From a virus: a stretch of DNA of 28,341 bases. Under the pieces are notes generated by a model. The model was given only the letters and a program-made list of their open reading frames with translations. It was not told the DNA's origin and ran no database searches. The translations under genes and the position numbers were made by a program. The DNA is taken from IMG/VR virus record IMGVR_UViG_3300011115_000135, positions 1 through 28,341 of that record. One strand, given 5' to 3'. How positions within the stretch are numbered: the stretch's first letter is position 1; the number at the start of each line of letters is the position of its first letter. Below, piece after piece: positions 1,899-25,566 of the stretch.

Positions 1899-2316
1899 TT
1901 TTGAAGAATTTACAGATGAAGTGTGGAAAGAAATTCCTTCAATGCCAACGCATATGGCTTCATCATATGGAAGGATTAAAGTTGTTCCATACAAAGCAAA
2001 AATGCCATATGGCGGTTACAGGCAATATGGAAATACCGCAATTTTTGGAGCGTTTGATAAAAAATATAAACGTTTTCAAATTATTTACAAAAATAAAACT
2101 TACAAAGTACATCGTTTGGTATGCGAAGCATTTCATGGGTCGCCACCGCCAAATAAAAACATTTGTATGCATTTGGATGAAAATTCAAAAAATAACAAAC
2201 CCGAAAATCTTGCATGGGGAACTCAAAAAGAAAATTTAAATGCTCCCGGTTTTATTGAATATTGCAAAAACAGAACTGGAAAAAATAATCCATTATACAA
2301 AGGAAGAAAAAAATGA
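1879..2316 (+). CDS. NUMOD4-HNH homing endonuclease, free-standing
   Basis: This 145-residue protein starts with a NUMOD4-type segment (EVWKEIPSMPTHMASSYGRI, residues 14-33), followed by an HNH_3-type core: KVHRLVCEAF (H78), MHLDEN (H98) and NNKPENLAWG (N110). It ends with RTGKNNPLYKG, like the first half of a NUMOD3 DNA-binding motif. Such proteins nick or cut DNA at homing sites and spread as selfish genes between phages. The start at 1879 was chosen because upstream codons in the same frame only shadow the nuclease gene. The gene overlaps that nuclease's 3' end by 20 bases, and its TGA overlaps the ATG of the resolvase gene. Codons are strikingly A-rich compared with both neighbours, indicating recent acquisition. 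Family is sure; the exact start is uncertain. Confidence 0.85.
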   Translation: MTSARFNFEEFTDEVWKEIPSMPTHMASSYGRIKVVPYKAKMPYGGYRQYGNTAIFGAFDKKYKRFQIIYKNKTYKVHRLVCEAFHGSPPPNKNICMHLDENSKNNKPENLAWGTQKENLNAPGFIEYCKNRTGKNNPLYKGRKK

Positions 2317-2774
2317 CACCCATCATTGGCATTGATCCAGGTCTCTCTGGAGCCTTGGCTCTATTGACTGACGATGGATTGGAAATCTTTGACATGCCCA
2401 CCTTGCAGGATGGCACCAAGCGGCGTGTAGACCATGCCCAGCTTGCGGTTATCTTGGACGTATGGGCCAAACATCAAGGCATCAGGTGCATCATAGAAAA
2501 GGTTGCATCTATGCCGGGAAATGGCCACGCCGGGGCGTTTACATTTGGACGCGCTGCCGGGGTGGTTATTGGGGCCGTTGCGGCTAATTTTATTCCGATT
2601 GTGGAGGTCACGCCGCAAGTTTGGAAAAGAGTTACCAAGACGCCGACTGATAAGGATGGGGCGCGGCTAAGAGCATCTGAACTTATGCCGCGCCAGTCTC
2701 ACCAATGGCCACTTAAAAAGCATGATGGACGGGCAGAAGCCGCCATTATCGCTTATTATGGGACGCTTGTTTAA
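2313..2774 (+). CDS. RuvC-like Holliday junction resolvase (RNase H fold)
   Basis: This 153-residue protein opens with IIGIDPGLSGALAL, the first RuvC strand with catalytic D8, then CIIEKV with E62, and ends with KKHDGRAEAAIIAYYG carrying D138 and E142, the usual four acidic positions of RuvC-type nucleases. The size is typical for phage RuvC-like resolvases, which cut branched DNA made during recombination and replication before packaging. The ATG at 2313 overlaps the HNH stop (ATGA) and is preceded by AAAGGAAG, a strong ribosome-binding site that lies inside the HNH gene, so the site may have been provided or preserved when the HNH gene was inserted. The last 29 bases overlap, tail to tail, the 3' end of the endolysin gene on the other strand. 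Confidence 0.88.
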   Translation: MTPIIGIDPGLSGALALLTDDGLEIFDMPTLQDGTKRRVDHAQLAVILDVWAKHQGIRCIIEKVASMPGNGHAGAFTFGRAAGVVIGAVAANFIPIVEVTPQVWKRVTKTPTDKDGARLRASELMPRQSHQWPLKKHDGRAEAAIIAYYGTLV

Positions 2775-3279
2775 GCATCATCTTGGCTCGTCTTGATACT
2801 TCGTCAACGCGCCGTTCCCAACCCTTGCCGAATGTTTTCCAAGTCGGCAAGGCGTTGAGGAAATTCAAACGCGCCTCGCAGTATTTTTCAATCAGGGTTT
2901 CCTGATCTTTCTTTAAAATAGCAGCAAGGGTTTTAGGTCCAATTGCCCCGTCCGTGACAAGACCGAGGCAAGATTGAAGTACCTTAACCGCACGCATAGG
3001 CCCCGCGTTAACTGCAAAGTCGAAAATCGCATAATCAACTCCTTCAGGCAAAGCATCGCCGCTTATCTTATCCCAGTAATTGTCCCTGTAGAAGGGCGTG
3101 ACGGCCTTGGGCGTCAAGGCTCGCATATCAGCCTCATGGCATATCTCGCCCGTGTACGCCTCCCAGGCGGCCTTGGTGACGCCAAGGCAAGTCATACCGC
3201 CCGGATCAATTGGATGGTTTACGAAACCGCCCTCAGATTTAAGCAAGAGCCGCAGGGATTCGTCAAAGTTACCGTTCAT
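2746..3279 (-). CDS. Endolysin, glycoside hydrolase family 108
   Basis: The 177-residue protein has the GH108 signature SEGGFVNHPIDPGGMTCLGVT: catalytic E16, then D25-PGG and the glycine-valine-threonine turn. The second half (FDFAVNAGPMRAVKVLQ...TDGAIGPKTL) is the peptidoglycan-binding domain usually attached to this family. It would cleave the glycan chain of peptidoglycan at the end of infection. I see no N-terminal signal or signal-anchor segment, so export should depend on the holin encoded immediately upstream, whose stop overlaps this ATG (ATGA). It is the last gene of the leftward late operon, the usual place for lysis genes in such phages, and its 3' end overlaps the RuvC-like gene. 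The common T-x-x/Y-G-V-T motif reads TCLGVT here. Confidence 0.92.
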   Translation of the reverse strand: MNGNFDESLRLLLKSEGGFVNHPIDPGGMTCLGVTKAAWEAYTGEICHEADMRALTPKAVTPFYRDNYWDKISGDALPEGVDYAIFDFAVNAGPMRAVKVLQSCLGLVTDGAIGPKTLAAILKKDQETLIEKYCEARLNFLNALPTWKTFGKGWERRVDEVSRRAKMMLKQASHNKR

Positions 3280-3665
3280 TTTGAAGCAACGCCTTTTAGT
3301 TTTTCATATGTACGCAAACCGCCCATGCCCAGCATACCAAACATCAGTTCCCACAAGCTGTTATCGAGCGAGGGCGGCGTAGGAAGCGGGTAATGGGCTA
3401 TGCCCGCCACCCAGACCGCAATAGGTGACAGAGTGTATTGGTACATAAGGGCAATGGCGCAGACCCAGCCAATGGCAGGACGCCATCCGGCAACAAACAT
3501 CGATGAGTTATTGGCTTCAGCCGCATTGACGGTGTTTTGTTGTGCATCCCAAGACAGCAGGGATTCACGCAATGCGGCCTCGGCCTTAATCTTTTCCGCC
3601 GGGTCTGGAACGAACTTATCTACAATCTTTAGGCCAGCGGCAATCGCATCATTAACGCCAAACAT
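3276..3665 (-). CDS. Holin of the 3-TM type (PF11351-like)
   Basis: Starting at the ATG at 3665 the product has 129 residues. An upstream ATG at 3683 lies within the previous gene, and the downstream one is favoured because CAGGGGAATAAG places a good Shine-Dalgarno just before it. After a charged amphipathic N-terminal half (EKIKAEAALRESLLSWDAQQ) come FVAGWRPAIGWVCAIALMYQ, a second hydrophobic stretch (LSPIAVWVAGIA) and LWELMFGMLGMGGLRTYEKLKG. The GWRP...GW pattern with a C-terminal R-T-x-E-K is characteristic of the phage 3-TM holin family. It would form the membrane lesion that lets the endolysin through. It lies directly upstream of, and overlaps, the endolysin gene, which supports the call. 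Confidence 0.85.
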   Translation of the reverse strand: MFGVNDAIAAGLKIVDKFVPDPAEKIKAEAALRESLLSWDAQQNTVNAAEANNSSMFVAGWRPAIGWVCAIALMYQYTLSPIAVWVAGIAHYPLPTPPSLDNSLWELMFGMLGMGGLRTYEKLKGVASK

Positions 3666-3666
3666 C

Positions 3667-4641
3667 TTATTCCCCTGACGCATCTATAACTGCCTGGCCC
3701 CTGAAATAGGCCACGTTCTCGATAACTTCCACCAATTCAGGCGGCAGCATCATGCCGTTCCTAAACGTCAAGACCGCAAAGCCTGAGCAATGAGGGCTTG
3801 GGTTATTCTCGGCATAGTCAAACTGTGGGCCATTCGGATCCGCTAGTGTGCCTGTATCAACACCATACCTGCGCCCGTTATAATCACCCCACGGCGTGAT
3901 AGCCAAACGGTGCAGGTGCCCAGTGACGATATTGCGTCCAGACTTCAGGGCGTTGTTGTAAGTCGCATGAACGCCATTGTTGTAACGGTGCTTGATCATG
4001 GTGTTATCGTTAATGTTCAAGGACCATGCAAAATTCCATGCATGGAAGCGTTCGTCTAGCCTTTGAACAAGGCCCTCAAATCCAGGTACAGCGACACAAA
4101 GAGTACGGTCAAGCCGCATATCGTGATTGCCAACATTCCAAAACAAATCCGCTTTTGTCTTTGATGCTAAAATTATTTCGTTCAGCCGCTCATCGCAGAT
4201 TTCAAGTTCTTCCTTAACGGAAGGAAGCTTGGACCAACCAAGCGGCGGATGGCGGCTAACGCCCGCACCGTCGAATATGTCGCCATTGGCGATAATGGTC
4301 TTGGGGTTCAGTTCCTTGATCAATTCCACCAGCGCCATATTGGCTACGGTTTGATCGTGATCTGGCCAGAAATGCGCGTCTGAAAAGACGATAATGACAC
4401 CGTTGTCAATTCGGTAATCATTCTGGCGAGAATAGGCGCGGCCAACGTCTGTGCGCCAGGTTCGATCTTGGCCTTTTGTGATTTTGTTTTCGGTTGTTGC
4501 TAAGATTATGCCCTTGTTAGCCAAAGCGGCCCTGCGCCTATAGATACTTCGAATATCCATATCGAGGATGCCGCTTACGGCTATTGGGCTTCCACCACTT
4601 TGTTGCCAAGCCGTGACAAACTCATCATCCGTATAAGACAC
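3667..4641 (-). CDS. Calcineurin-like metallophosphoesterase with N-terminal helix-turn-helix-like region
   Basis: The 324-residue protein has all metallophosphoesterase motifs in order: FSDAHF (D88, H90), ANGDIFDG (119-124), GNHDMR (171-176) and GHLHR (241-245). They bind a di-metal centre that hydrolyses phosphodiesters or phosphomonoesters. The first 45 residues (FVTAWQQSGGSPIAVSGIL...IRSIYRRRAAL) look like a helix-turn-helix, suggesting DNA binding, so a nucleic-acid substrate is plausible but unproven. Translation probably begins at GTG (4641), preceded by AAGGAACCTAT. The gene sits between the DUF5856-type gene and the holin. Phages often carry such an enzyme in late regions; its role in infection is unclear to me. 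The enzyme class is certain from the motifs. Confidence 0.88.
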   Translation of the reverse strand: MSYTDDEFVTAWQQSGGSPIAVSGILDMDIRSIYRRRAALANKGIILATTENKITKGQDRTWRTDVGRAYSRQNDYRIDNGVIIVFSDAHFWPDHDQTVANMALVELIKELNPKTIIANGDIFDGAGVSRHPPLGWSKLPSVKEELEICDERLNEIILASKTKADLFWNVGNHDMRLDRTLCVAVPGFEGLVQRLDERFHAWNFAWSLNINDNTMIKHRYNNGVHATYNNALKSGRNIVTGHLHRLAITPWGDYNGRRYGVDTGTLADPNGPQFDYAENNPSPHCSGFAVLTFRNGMMLPPELVEVIENVAYFRGQAVIDASGE

Positions 4642-23107: not shown

Positions 23108-23371
23108 TTAGGCCGACCAAAAAACGGTGCAATCAACAGTGCCGCTGATCGTAACGACAAGCGAAGTCGTAAAGCGAGCGGGCATTGGATAGAACGTGCC
23201 AGGCAGCGGCGTAAAGGTATTGACAATGGTGCCAGAGCCATCAGCGACCTTAATGGTTGGCGTAGCCGATGCAGAGGCAACGAAAATGCCAAGAATGGCA
23301 CCAAAGCCCGTAAACACGGTCGTGGTTGCCGTAATATTCTTGTAATTCTGACTTTCAGAAACTGGCGTCAT
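23108..23371 (-). CDS. Small beta-rich structural protein, hypothetical
   Basis: The 87-residue protein (ITATTTVFTGFGAILGIFVA, ASATPTIKVADGSGTIVNTF, PMPARFTTSLVVTISGTVDC, ending TVFWSA) is strand-rich and resembles small phage head or fibre-base proteins. The N-terminal glycine and alanine stretch is moderately hydrophobic but no clear transmembrane anchor is evident. Its ATG overlaps the terminase stop (ATGA). Translation of this gene therefore depends on completing the terminase and intein frame. Function unknown. Confidence 0.6.
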   Translation of the reverse strand: MTPVSESQNYKNITATTTVFTGFGAILGIFVASASATPTIKVADGSGTIVNTFTPLPGTFYPMPARFTTSLVVTISGTVDCTVFWSA

Positions 23372-25566
23372 ATTCTTGATCTCCTAATGCGTTTATGGGA
23401 AGCCCACATGTCGTTCAATGTAGCAGTATTTCCCGGACCTACAATAAGCGGCCTTTCAGAGGGCGCGGTACGCACTGTAGGCTCGTCGCGCCATGCAATA
23501 GCCAACATTCTGAACGCATCTGCCGGGTGCGAACAGTTATGAACTAATGCACCGTTACAAAGGCTAAATTCTTCAACGCTTGGGACGTCCATGCACCAAA
23601 CATTTTGCATTTCATTCAAAACCTGCACTTTTTCTATAACGAGCAGATGCTTTTGCGCCGTCCCCACGTTCACGATACGCTTTAACTTTGCAAGCTGGCG
23701 TACAATAAACTTGAGTGTTTCCTGATTTTCTAACCAAACAATCAAAGATGACATTGCATTGCGGACAATTTTTAGGCTCTCGCTTCCATTTTGTCCAAGA
23801 CTGCGCCCTTTGTGCATGTCTTCTATGCCAAAGTCTACCCTCTTCCGATTTATGCCAATCAGATGCTTTTTCTCTAGCTTCGGCATTAAATGATCGTTTT
23901 GGATTATTTTTAAGGGTTTCTTGCAAATGAATTTTTGCAGGAAGGCATTCAAGATTTTCCAAAGAATTGTTTTTTTTGTTGCTGTCTTTGTGGTGGATAT
24001 GACAGTCATCAGGAATTGTGCCAAACGCGACTCGCCAAGCTTCCCTATGAAGATATTTACCGCCTCGTTTAAGATATTTGTCAGCCGGAAAAATACGGAA
24101 AAGACCGCCATCGAAATATTGCGTAAGGGAGTCAAGGACGATTGGATCAGCATACCCTTCGTTAGGGATTCTGCGGATTTCCACCCGTTCTCCGTTTTGA
24201 ATAAATGATCCGGCGTACATTTCACCGTGAGTCCGTCTTTGAACGTGACCATCACAAGTGGGGCATTTTTCCGAGTTATGCGAGGGTTGCGGTATGTTTT
24301 CCAACCACATGATGTTAAAACCTTTCCTTGTTGCGGAAGGTTACTTATCTGACACATTCCGTAACGTGTCAATACCCTTGTATCTCCGGTAAAACACCAG
24401 TTATGCTTAGGCGTCGCCCTAAATGCCTTCTTATCTTCGTCAAACTCACGTTCGTACTGGCGAAGGGCCTCAATACCCTCCATGCACTTGCGTTCATCGA
24501 ACCAACAGCGTGATAACATTTGTCGAACCGCTTGGATACCGTCCTGAACCGACAAATCAGGCACAATACGCAGGTTTTGTACCCCTAAATATTCGCCAAG
24601 TTGCTCAATTATCGACTTACCCTGTGCCGCAAGTGTTTTAGCACGCGCATCATGGGGCAAATAATGCGTTCCGTAATGGTAGGGCTTTTGCGTGATGACC
24701 TTAGCCAACTCTTGTATGCTAGCACCAGACACAGCATGATAATCAATGATATGAATTTCACCAGCAATAACCTGATACCACCAAATTGCCGTGTCATCGC
24801 GGTACCCCAAGTCCCAGGCCGTATGTGTAGGCAGGCTAGGATCGTATGCAACCTCGGTAACGCGCTTTTCTTCCGTAGCAATACGCATTTCAATACCATA
24901 AAACGCACCAAGAATGGCCGCTTCAAAGCTGCACTCGTATTCCTGCATATATTGGTCTTCGGAAATCTGGGCCTTAACAGCGTTTATTTCGCTCATGGGC
25001 AAAATACCGCTTTCGGTGGCCGTCAGACGCAAGCAAAACCATTCTTCAGGGTTCATCCTAGCGGTTTGAAAAATATCCCAGAACTGATTCTTGCCTTTTG
25101 GCGTACCACCAAAGACCGCCCAGCCCTGTTTGTCCGACAATGTTGGGCGAATGACTGAACCCCATACAGAAGGCCGGAAGTCTCCATATTCGTCCATATA
25201 AATGCCATCGAAACCAAGCCCGCGCATAGCATCAGCATTATCTGCGCCGAAAAGCCTGATCTTGGCCCCATTGATAAGTTCGATTGTGAGTTCCGCTTCA
25301 TTGGCCGACTTCATGATCGGAGCGCAAAAACGTTTAAAATAATCCCAAGCCACAGATTTAGCCTGGCTTCTAAACGGCGCGATATACCCAAACAGCGGAT
25401 TAGGCGACCTGCACGTTACCGCCGCCCTAATAATATCATTTACCGCCGATACCGTTTTACCAGCACGGCGATGGGCAACGAGACAAGCCCAGCGTTGCTT
25501 CCTATTGTGAAACGGTTTGAACGATTCACGCGGTGCGTAGCTAAGCTTTATTTCTCGTTGGACCAC
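23368..25566 (-). CDS. Terminase large subunit interrupted by an intein
   Basis: The continuous frame codes for 732 residues, of which residues 391-677 are an intein, leaving a 445-residue terminase, a typical size. The ATPase part has Walker A AHRRAGKT (residues 31-38), Walker B GIYMDEYG with D125 and E126, and coupling segment VFGGTPKGK (151-159). The nuclease part has WDLGYRD with D252, LPHDAR, and the last motif CSHPADAFR, split from its upstream sequence by the intein. It packages DNA into the capsid by ATP hydrolysis and cuts the concatemer. Translation likely starts at GTG 25566; the small terminase gene overlaps by 19 bases. Activity should require protein splicing, because the last catalytic aspartate follows the intein directly. 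Confidence 0.9.
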   Translation of the reverse strand: MVQREIKLSYAPRESFKPFHNRKQRWACLVAHRRAGKTVSAVNDIIRAAVTCRSPNPLFGYIAPFRSQAKSVAWDYFKRFCAPIMKSANEAELTIELINGAKIRLFGADNADAMRGLGFDGIYMDEYGDFRPSVWGSVIRPTLSDKQGWAVFGGTPKGKNQFWDIFQTARMNPEEWFCLRLTATESGILPMSEINAVKAQISEDQYMQEYECSFEAAILGAFYGIEMRIATEEKRVTEVAYDPSLPTHTAWDLGYRDDTAIWWYQVIAGEIHIIDYHAVSGASIQELAKVITQKPYHYGTHYLPHDARAKTLAAQGKSIIEQLGEYLGVQNLRIVPDLSVQDGIQAVRQMLSRCWFDERKCMEGIEALRQYEREFDEDKKAFRATPKHNWCFTGDTRVLTRYGMCQISNLPQQGKVLTSCGWKTYRNPRITRKNAPLVMVTFKDGLTVKCTPDHLFKTENGWKSAESLTKGMLIQSSLTPLRNISMAVFSVFFRLTNILNEAVNIFIGKLGESRLAQFLMTVISTTKTATKKTILWKILNAFLQKFICKKPLKIIQNDHLMPKLEKKHLIGINRKRVDFGIEDMHKGRSLGQNGSESLKIVRNAMSSLIVWLENQETLKFIVRQLAKLKRIVNVGTAQKHLLVIEKVQVLNEMQNVWCMDVPSVEEFSLCNGALVHNCSHPADAFRMLAIAWRDEPTVRTAPSERPLIVGPGNTATLNDMWASHKRIRRSRI
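23536..24396 (-). mobile_element. Intein in the large terminase with no in-frame endonuclease domain
   Basis: Splicing blocks are visible. Block A is CFTGDTRVLTRYG, with Cys1 encoded at 24394-24396; block B is GLTVKCTPDHLF, with the T-x-x-H at intein residues 61-64. Block F is WCMDVPSVEEFSLCNG and block G is ALVHN, with Asn287 at 23536-23538. The +1 residue is Cys (23533-23535). Cys1, the terminal His-Asn and Cys+1 make it a canonical class 1 intein. The 287-residue length is above that of a mini-intein, but the segment from about residue 90 to 250 has no LAGLIDADG or HNH motif in this frame. It is Lys/Ile/Thr-rich and appears to be the out-of-frame reading of the HNH gene nested there. The insertion site is between a Trp and the C-S-H-P-A-D-A-F-R nuclease motif. 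Confidence 0.88.
23612..24310 (-). CDS. HNH endonuclease gene nested out of frame inside the intein
   Basis: This 232-codon gene is on the same strand as the terminase, with codons starting at the third base of terminase codons. It encodes a C-x-x-C (C16, C19) near the N-terminus, then an HNH_3-type core: YLHREAWRVAFG (H88), CHIHHKDSN (H106, H107) and NNSLENLECL (N119). A C-terminal zinc-finger-like element follows (NCPQC at 181-185; VYCTPAC with C203 and C207), and a basic tail. The ATG at 24310 has its own Shine-Dalgarno (AAGGAAAGG, 10 bases upstream), and a stop in this frame lies just before it. It covers intein codons 29 to 262. Most likely it makes the homing cut that spreads the intein; that is inferred. 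The protein-like sequence leaves little doubt that it is real. Confidence 0.85.
   Translation of the reverse strand: MWLENIPQPSHNSEKCPTCDGHVQRRTHGEMYAGSFIQNGERVEIRRIPNEGYADPIVLDSLTQYFDGGLFRIFPADKYLKRGGKYLHREAWRVAFGTIPDDCHIHHKDSNKKNNSLENLECLPAKIHLQETLKNNPKRSFNAEAREKASDWHKSEEGRLWHRRHAQRAQSWTKWKREPKNCPQCNVIFDCLVRKSGNTQVYCTPACKVKAYRERGDGAKASARYRKSAGFE

Follow-up and report, generated by a model that had tools for sequence, protein, structure and literature searches.

Large inteins of the PI-SceI type carry an in-frame homing endonuclease domain between splicing blocks B and F, and I-HmuI is an HNH homing endonuclease encoded in a group I intron. Dassa and colleagues reportedly described 'fractured genes' in 2009, with split inteins and a separate endonuclease gene between the halves. 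This fractured-gene work (Dassa et al. 2009) is cited in PMC10448857. Arsenault, Gosselin, and Gogarten (2025, PMC11855218) describe the ShiLan domain and the Pacc40 gp60 insertion, in which HNH endonucleases lie out of frame within DNA methylase genes of mycobacteriophages. Here we analyzed the DNA of IMG/VR record IMGVR_UViG_3300011115_000135, the whole stretch of which (28,341 nt) is called the window. Its terminase large subunit gene very probably contains a mobile class-1 intein whose homing endonuclease is a separate gene in the −1 frame of the intein, made by internal initiation. Two frames, selection on both, kept start signals, empty sites, and a spread across unrelated terminases were observed. 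Confidence was high for the anatomy and the selection, and for the mechanism it was good, short of proof.

The terminase large subunit precursor (N-extein, intein, and C-extein) was encoded on the minus strand, as were all features of the window described below, at 23368..25566 as a single open reading frame of 732 residues with a GTG start. It matched the PHROG 2 terminase large subunit (E = 5e-36) and both Pfam Terminase_6N and Terminase_6C. The intein took up 287 codons (23536..24396) and was an exact insert relative to intein-free alleles, with boundaries kept in 91 elements; the extein length without it was 445 residues. Pfam Intein_splicing (PF14890) matched the terminase frame at residues 432–677 above the cut-off (E = 6.7e-9). 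Block A (CFTGDTRVLTRYG, 24358..24396) held Cys1 and was matched by NCBIfam intein_Nterm. Block B (VKCTPDHLFKTENGW, 24181..24225) showed the TxxH motif with T61 and H64, both invariant in the alignment of relatives. Block F (NVWCMDVPSVEEFSL, 23560..23604) was kept in the intein alignment, and block G (NGALVHN, 23536..23556) was followed by the +1 Cys of the C-extein. Cys1, the TxxH block B, the penultimate His, the terminal Asn, and the +1 Cys are the sequence features of a class 1 intein. As terminase and intein formed the single open reading frame 23368–25566, a split intein or fractured gene was ruled out for the window's element. The search for a group I intron gave no Rfam intron match at E ≤ 1.

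The nested HNH endonuclease gene was located at 23612..24310, started with ATG, and encoded 232 residues in the −1 frame relative to the terminase, so it was not the canonical endonuclease fused in frame between blocks B and F. It spanned intein codons 29–260, and its stop fell at about codon 261, directly before block F. Position 1 of the HNH codons coincided with position 3 of the terminase and intein codons, and HNH position 3 with intein position 2. The protein matched Pfam HNH_3 (E = 1.8e-14) and PHROG 15471 (E = 4e-23). Its HNH_3 catalytic core (HNH residues 85–128, 23927..24058) showed invariant H88, H106, H107, N119, and H128, that is, the HNH motif with conserved catalytic residues of an HNH homing endonuclease. 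A C-terminal four-cysteine zinc-finger-like module (HNH residues 182–207, 23690..23767) had cysteines that were invariant in two alignments. The best structural match of the HNH model was the homing endonuclease I-HmuI, although weak (E = 0.027). A profile search of solved structures with the HNH protein returned Exported protein 2 as its sole match, which was dismissed as spurious. The initial annotation, made from the letters of the window, had proposed a splicing intein with a separately encoded HNH nuclease. Its coordinates were exact, and both its anatomy and its reading were supported.

The HNH protein was searched against IMG/VR; nine contigs matched at 53–69% identity, and each of them had its HNH gene within a terminase intein, at the frame offset of the window. 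Profile searches extended this to 146 loci with the identical frame offset in 146/146, which excludes an indel or assembly artefact. Among 91 distinct elements with complete boundaries, Cys1 and a +1 C/S/T were present in every case, the His-Asn end in 90, and the intein frame was open in all 91. Across these 91 loci the insertion point varied over a few codons within a single conserved terminase motif (HNW/CSHPADA, HDWA/SHGADA, HDWSSH/CADA, and HDWSSHG/SDA, where the slash marks the insertion), which indicates several neighbouring sites and one element family. A census from deeper HNH profiles and annotated phages, with sampling biased toward the queries, contained 288 distinct loci. The gene was nested in the same −1 frame in 224 of them (4 with one intein half recognised), lay between split intein halves in 30, was free-standing in 30, and fell outside these classes in 4. 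The nested arrangement is therefore the commonest state of this HNH family in the sample. No in-frame HNH and no other out-of-frame reading was present among the 288 loci, in scans that were seeded mainly with nested HNHs and of which the best 80 per scan were taken, which limits the absence of in-frame relatives.

Selection on the two frames was examined in 76 elements less than 85% identical; as the elements are related, the products of probabilities are inexact. At four-fold degenerate sites with the intein residue kept, third-base identity was 67% in HNH codons 1–62 versus 34% in the exteins. In the intein after the HNH stop it was 32%, which controls for shared transfer history. Synonymous sites in the block-B overlap were about twice as conserved as elsewhere. 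When intein-synonymous codons were redrawn, the expected identity of the HNH N-terminal stretch was 0.257 ± 0.003, compared with 0.548 observed, and 2.46 HNH-frame stops were expected per element, where one was seen across all 76. HNH third bases showed an identity of 0.70 in the block-B overlap versus 0.385 in the HNH core. Constraint on the intein protein thus acts in the overlap and is absent from the core. In the core, none of the 76 elements had a stop in the terminase frame, with 1.34 (permutation) or 2.03 (codon redraw) expected per element. In the window by itself, a terminase frame without stops across the core was unremarkable (0.6 stops expected on codon permutation, P(0) = 0.47), and the third frame there contained 22 stops.

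The HNH frame is thus under purifying selection, as seen from both third-base identity and the codon redraw, which answers the question of per-frame selection that the initial annotation had raised. Its further claim that both frames are maintained for about 700 bases stood in part. Dual coding with selection on both proteins is confined to about 60 codons around block B, a stretch that corresponds to HNH codons 1–62 (24125..24310), an overprinted N-terminal extension running through intein block B. In the remaining 170 codons or so, constraint falls on the HNH protein alone, and the intein frame simply remains open. The layout is unusual, and this is the sole point in favour of a decaying remnant or assembly artefact of an in-frame HNH intein with an indel. 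With the same offset at 146 loci, no frame-restoring homologue, no in-frame case in the 288, and purifying selection on the HNH frame, we give that explanation practically no credence. The arrangement is real, conserved, and selected, and it is common and evolutionarily maintained in environmental viruses. Per 160 codons of non-nested HNH genes, stops numbered about 6 in the same frame and about 18 in the third frame; a fresh HNH insert may thus have been easier to read through in the frame that is used. The comparison of stop counts between nested and non-nested genes gave a tiny P, and it was rejected as a test: an open frame is what defines a nested locus, which makes the comparison circular.

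Signals for a separate translation start were kept within the intein. A Shine-Dalgarno-like GGAAAGG (24321..24327; family consensus GGAGAGG) ended 10 nt before the HNH ATG, and such a signal was present in 83 of the 91 elements. The Glu codon within it was GAG in 55/66 cases versus 1141/2058 in the exteins (P = 3e-6). The A of the HNH ATG, which is a third base in the intein frame, was kept in 73/76 elements with 14 expected. Kept together, the Shine-Dalgarno sequence and the A of the ATG support independent internal initiation of the HNH protein. At intein codon 30 (24307–24309), the residue before Gly-Trp was Cys in 64 of the 76 relatives. This preference apparently arises because the TG of the HNH ATG lies in that codon.

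As an alternative to internal initiation, ribosomes could shift into the −1 frame while translating the intein and produce a fusion of the intein N-part with HNH. The HNH frame is −1 of the terminase in every case, as frameshifting would have it. However, the window's HNH frame was open for just 10 codons upstream of its ATG, the conserved signals were a Shine-Dalgarno sequence and an ATG whose A is an intein third base, and inspection by eye of the upstream sequences of relatives revealed no conserved slippery heptamer. Frameshifting is consequently very improbable, and internal initiation is the reading we retain.

The structure model of the intein was confident at residues 1–86 and 250–287 alone, which were rich in β-strands, and the middle had a predicted local distance difference test score (pLDDT) below 50. 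Over the confident parts, the best PDB matches were the gp41-1 intein (E = 2.6e-6) and DnaB inteins, so the modeled intein has the Hint fold. One relative, L293 (plus-strand open reading frame 2283–4022), carried a natural mini-intein of 129 codons from the same family, in which the HNH core was deleted and the intein frame kept. It retained the splicing blocks and a truncated HNH start. The deletion in L293 and the low-confidence middle of the model suggest that the middle of the intein is probably dispensable for splicing.

The closest IMG/VR terminases (L451–L453) were 99% identical in protein sequence and had no insert. L451 and L452 showed a clean empty site, and exactly 861 bases were absent. 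The empty site reads CATAACTGG directly followed by TGTTCGCAC. L451 matched the flank-joined window at 93.4% over 2,049 bp with a clean junction. At the other best terminase loci, the match spans were too tight for an 861-bp insert, and 36 loci were crossed by a single DNA alignment. HNH identity averaged 0.55 between elements with exteins less than 20% identical. Precise empty sites and a patchy spread over unrelated terminases are what mobility by an HNH homing endonuclease is expected to leave, and the pattern is that of a homing element. The HNH nuclease therefore probably helps the intein to spread. In the 5′ flank of the intein (approximately 24397–24455), mismatches to L451–L453 were 0.10–0.12 per bp in the last 50 bp versus about 0.05 upstream; this is possibly a co-conversion tract.

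The nested HNH might instead be a domesticated packaging factor that works with the terminase and is retained for packaging, not for homing. Packaging-assisting HNH proteins exist, e.g., HK97 gp74, and related HNH genes were free-standing beside terminase genes in Yuavirus phages, Exiguobacterium, Brevundimonas, and Salmonella phages. Nevertheless, terminases that were 99% identical lacked both intein and HNH at the same place, L293 lost the HNH core and retained its mini-intein, and similarity tracked the element and not the terminase. A packaging role in place of homing is thus unlikely, though less remote than frameshifting.

For a mobile intein with an overlapping endonuclease gene, one mRNA would give two products. 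Ribosomes from the terminase start would read across the intein and make the precursor. Its Hint domain (residues 1–86 and 250–287) would then excise itself and ligate the exteins, with residues from about 87 to 249 as a linker of low order. Other ribosomes would enter at the internal Shine-Dalgarno/ATG at intein codon 29 and produce the 232-residue HNH nuclease. This nuclease would cut terminase alleles without the intein in co-infecting phages, at the conserved H-N-W/C-S-H site, and repair would copy the 861-bp element into the cut allele. Several points weigh against this scheme. Translation, splicing, cutting, and homing were all inferred here. The Shine-Dalgarno sequence of the window (GGAAAGG) was weaker than the family consensus GGAGAGG. 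The ATG was absent at the conserved place in 11/76 relatives, most of which had an ATG within a few codons. The HNH structure model had low confidence (mean pLDDT 62). Finally, HNH proteins beside terminases can serve packaging, so homing is not the sole possible role.

Nested examples included two cultured phages, Tetrasphaera phage TJE1 and Acinetobacter phage Highwayman, as well as Rhodobacteraceae phage MD07 and Frankia AgB32. Outside the 288-locus census, a terminase-like gene on a Halobacterium plasmid (L531, 1439–3751) with an adjacent phage portal gene had a nested HNH in the same −1 frame; this gene was annotated solely as 'Hint domain-containing protein'. The HNH was a separate open reading frame between terminase intein halves in L148, L149, L151, L163, and 26 further loci, with Lactobacillus phage CL2 and a Staphylococcus borealis contig as examples. 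Free-standing relatives near terminase genes were observed in cultured phages (L152, L153, L154 (Yuavirus type), L156, L159, L161, and L164), and in Salmonella phage PhiSTP1 the free-standing relative was on the strand opposite to the terminase. A scan of bacterial and archaeal genomes gave six HNH loci, all distant.

In deeper members the HNH start was at about intein codon 87, after block B, compared with codon 29 in the window's clade, and alignments with HNH relatives from annotated phages began at about residue 48 or later. Taken together, these indicate an overprinted N-terminal extension of about 55 residues in the window's clade. The HNH tree required at least 20 switches between the nested, split, and free states; as it is unrooted with many weak branches, the direction of change is not readable from it. 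The chances are about even that an endonuclease overlapping in a fixed −1 frame marks a widespread, previously unrecognised intein class in viruses of bacteria and archaea, at one end of a range that extends to split inteins and free-standing endonucleases, with the extension of the window's clade overprinted through block B.

In standard large inteins, splicing and homing domains share one polypeptide and constrain each other. The window's arrangement separates the two and retains their co-transmission. It offers natural mini-inteins and a way to switch off homing without touching splicing, and it is a case of overlapping-gene evolution with many comparable sequences. One HNH family occupies all three settings, within inteins, between split intein halves, and on its own, so the question of how split inteins arose can be addressed within a single tree. 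In the inspected records of TJE1, Highwayman, MD07, and Halobacterium, the terminase or Hint protein was annotated but the nested HNH gene was left out; annotation thus overlooks a class of probable homing nucleases.

The initial annotation had not recognised the arrangement as a standard type and had left its novelty unconfirmed. In the literature found, an endonuclease nested out of frame in an intein had no published description, though a 2025 actinobacteriophage preprint on non-canonical inteins may overlap. It is not rare, however, being the commonest state in our sample, and the nested layout as such is not new, because out-of-frame HNH insertions without an intein were reported in 2025 (PMC11855218). 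The ShiLan domain is the nearest published precedent, without an intein. As in the window's element, an insertion that is stop-free in the host frame conceals an entire HNH gene read in a different frame. The ShiLan start at base 18 of the insert is at codon position 3, the same relative frame, and its HNH has flanking zinc fingers and a patchy distribution suggesting homing. Unlike the window's host frame, which is a complete Hint intein, the ShiLan in-frame reading has no domain for splicing and is presumed to be retained in the protein. The gene that hosts it encodes a non-essential methylase; no ribosome-binding site was identified, and no per-frame selection test was seen in the text.

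Compared with PI-SceI-type inteins, the window's intein likewise has its Hint domain interrupted at the usual endonuclease position and sits at a conserved site of an essential gene, but its endonuclease is out of frame, has its own start and stop, and is not covalently joined. I-HmuI resembles the window's HNH in having an HNH core with DNA-binding parts, as far as the weak match goes, but it is encoded in a group I intron, and no intron RNA match was present at the window locus. The closest parallel in architecture is the split intein with a separate endonuclease. In both cases, the endonuclease is made as a protein of its own from a gene located between the N and C intein parts, whereas the window's intein is continuous, its endonuclease overlaps in the other frame, and no trans-splicing is needed. 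The window's element is most likely a homing intein from which the endonuclease has been uncoupled and is encoded by an overlapping gene.
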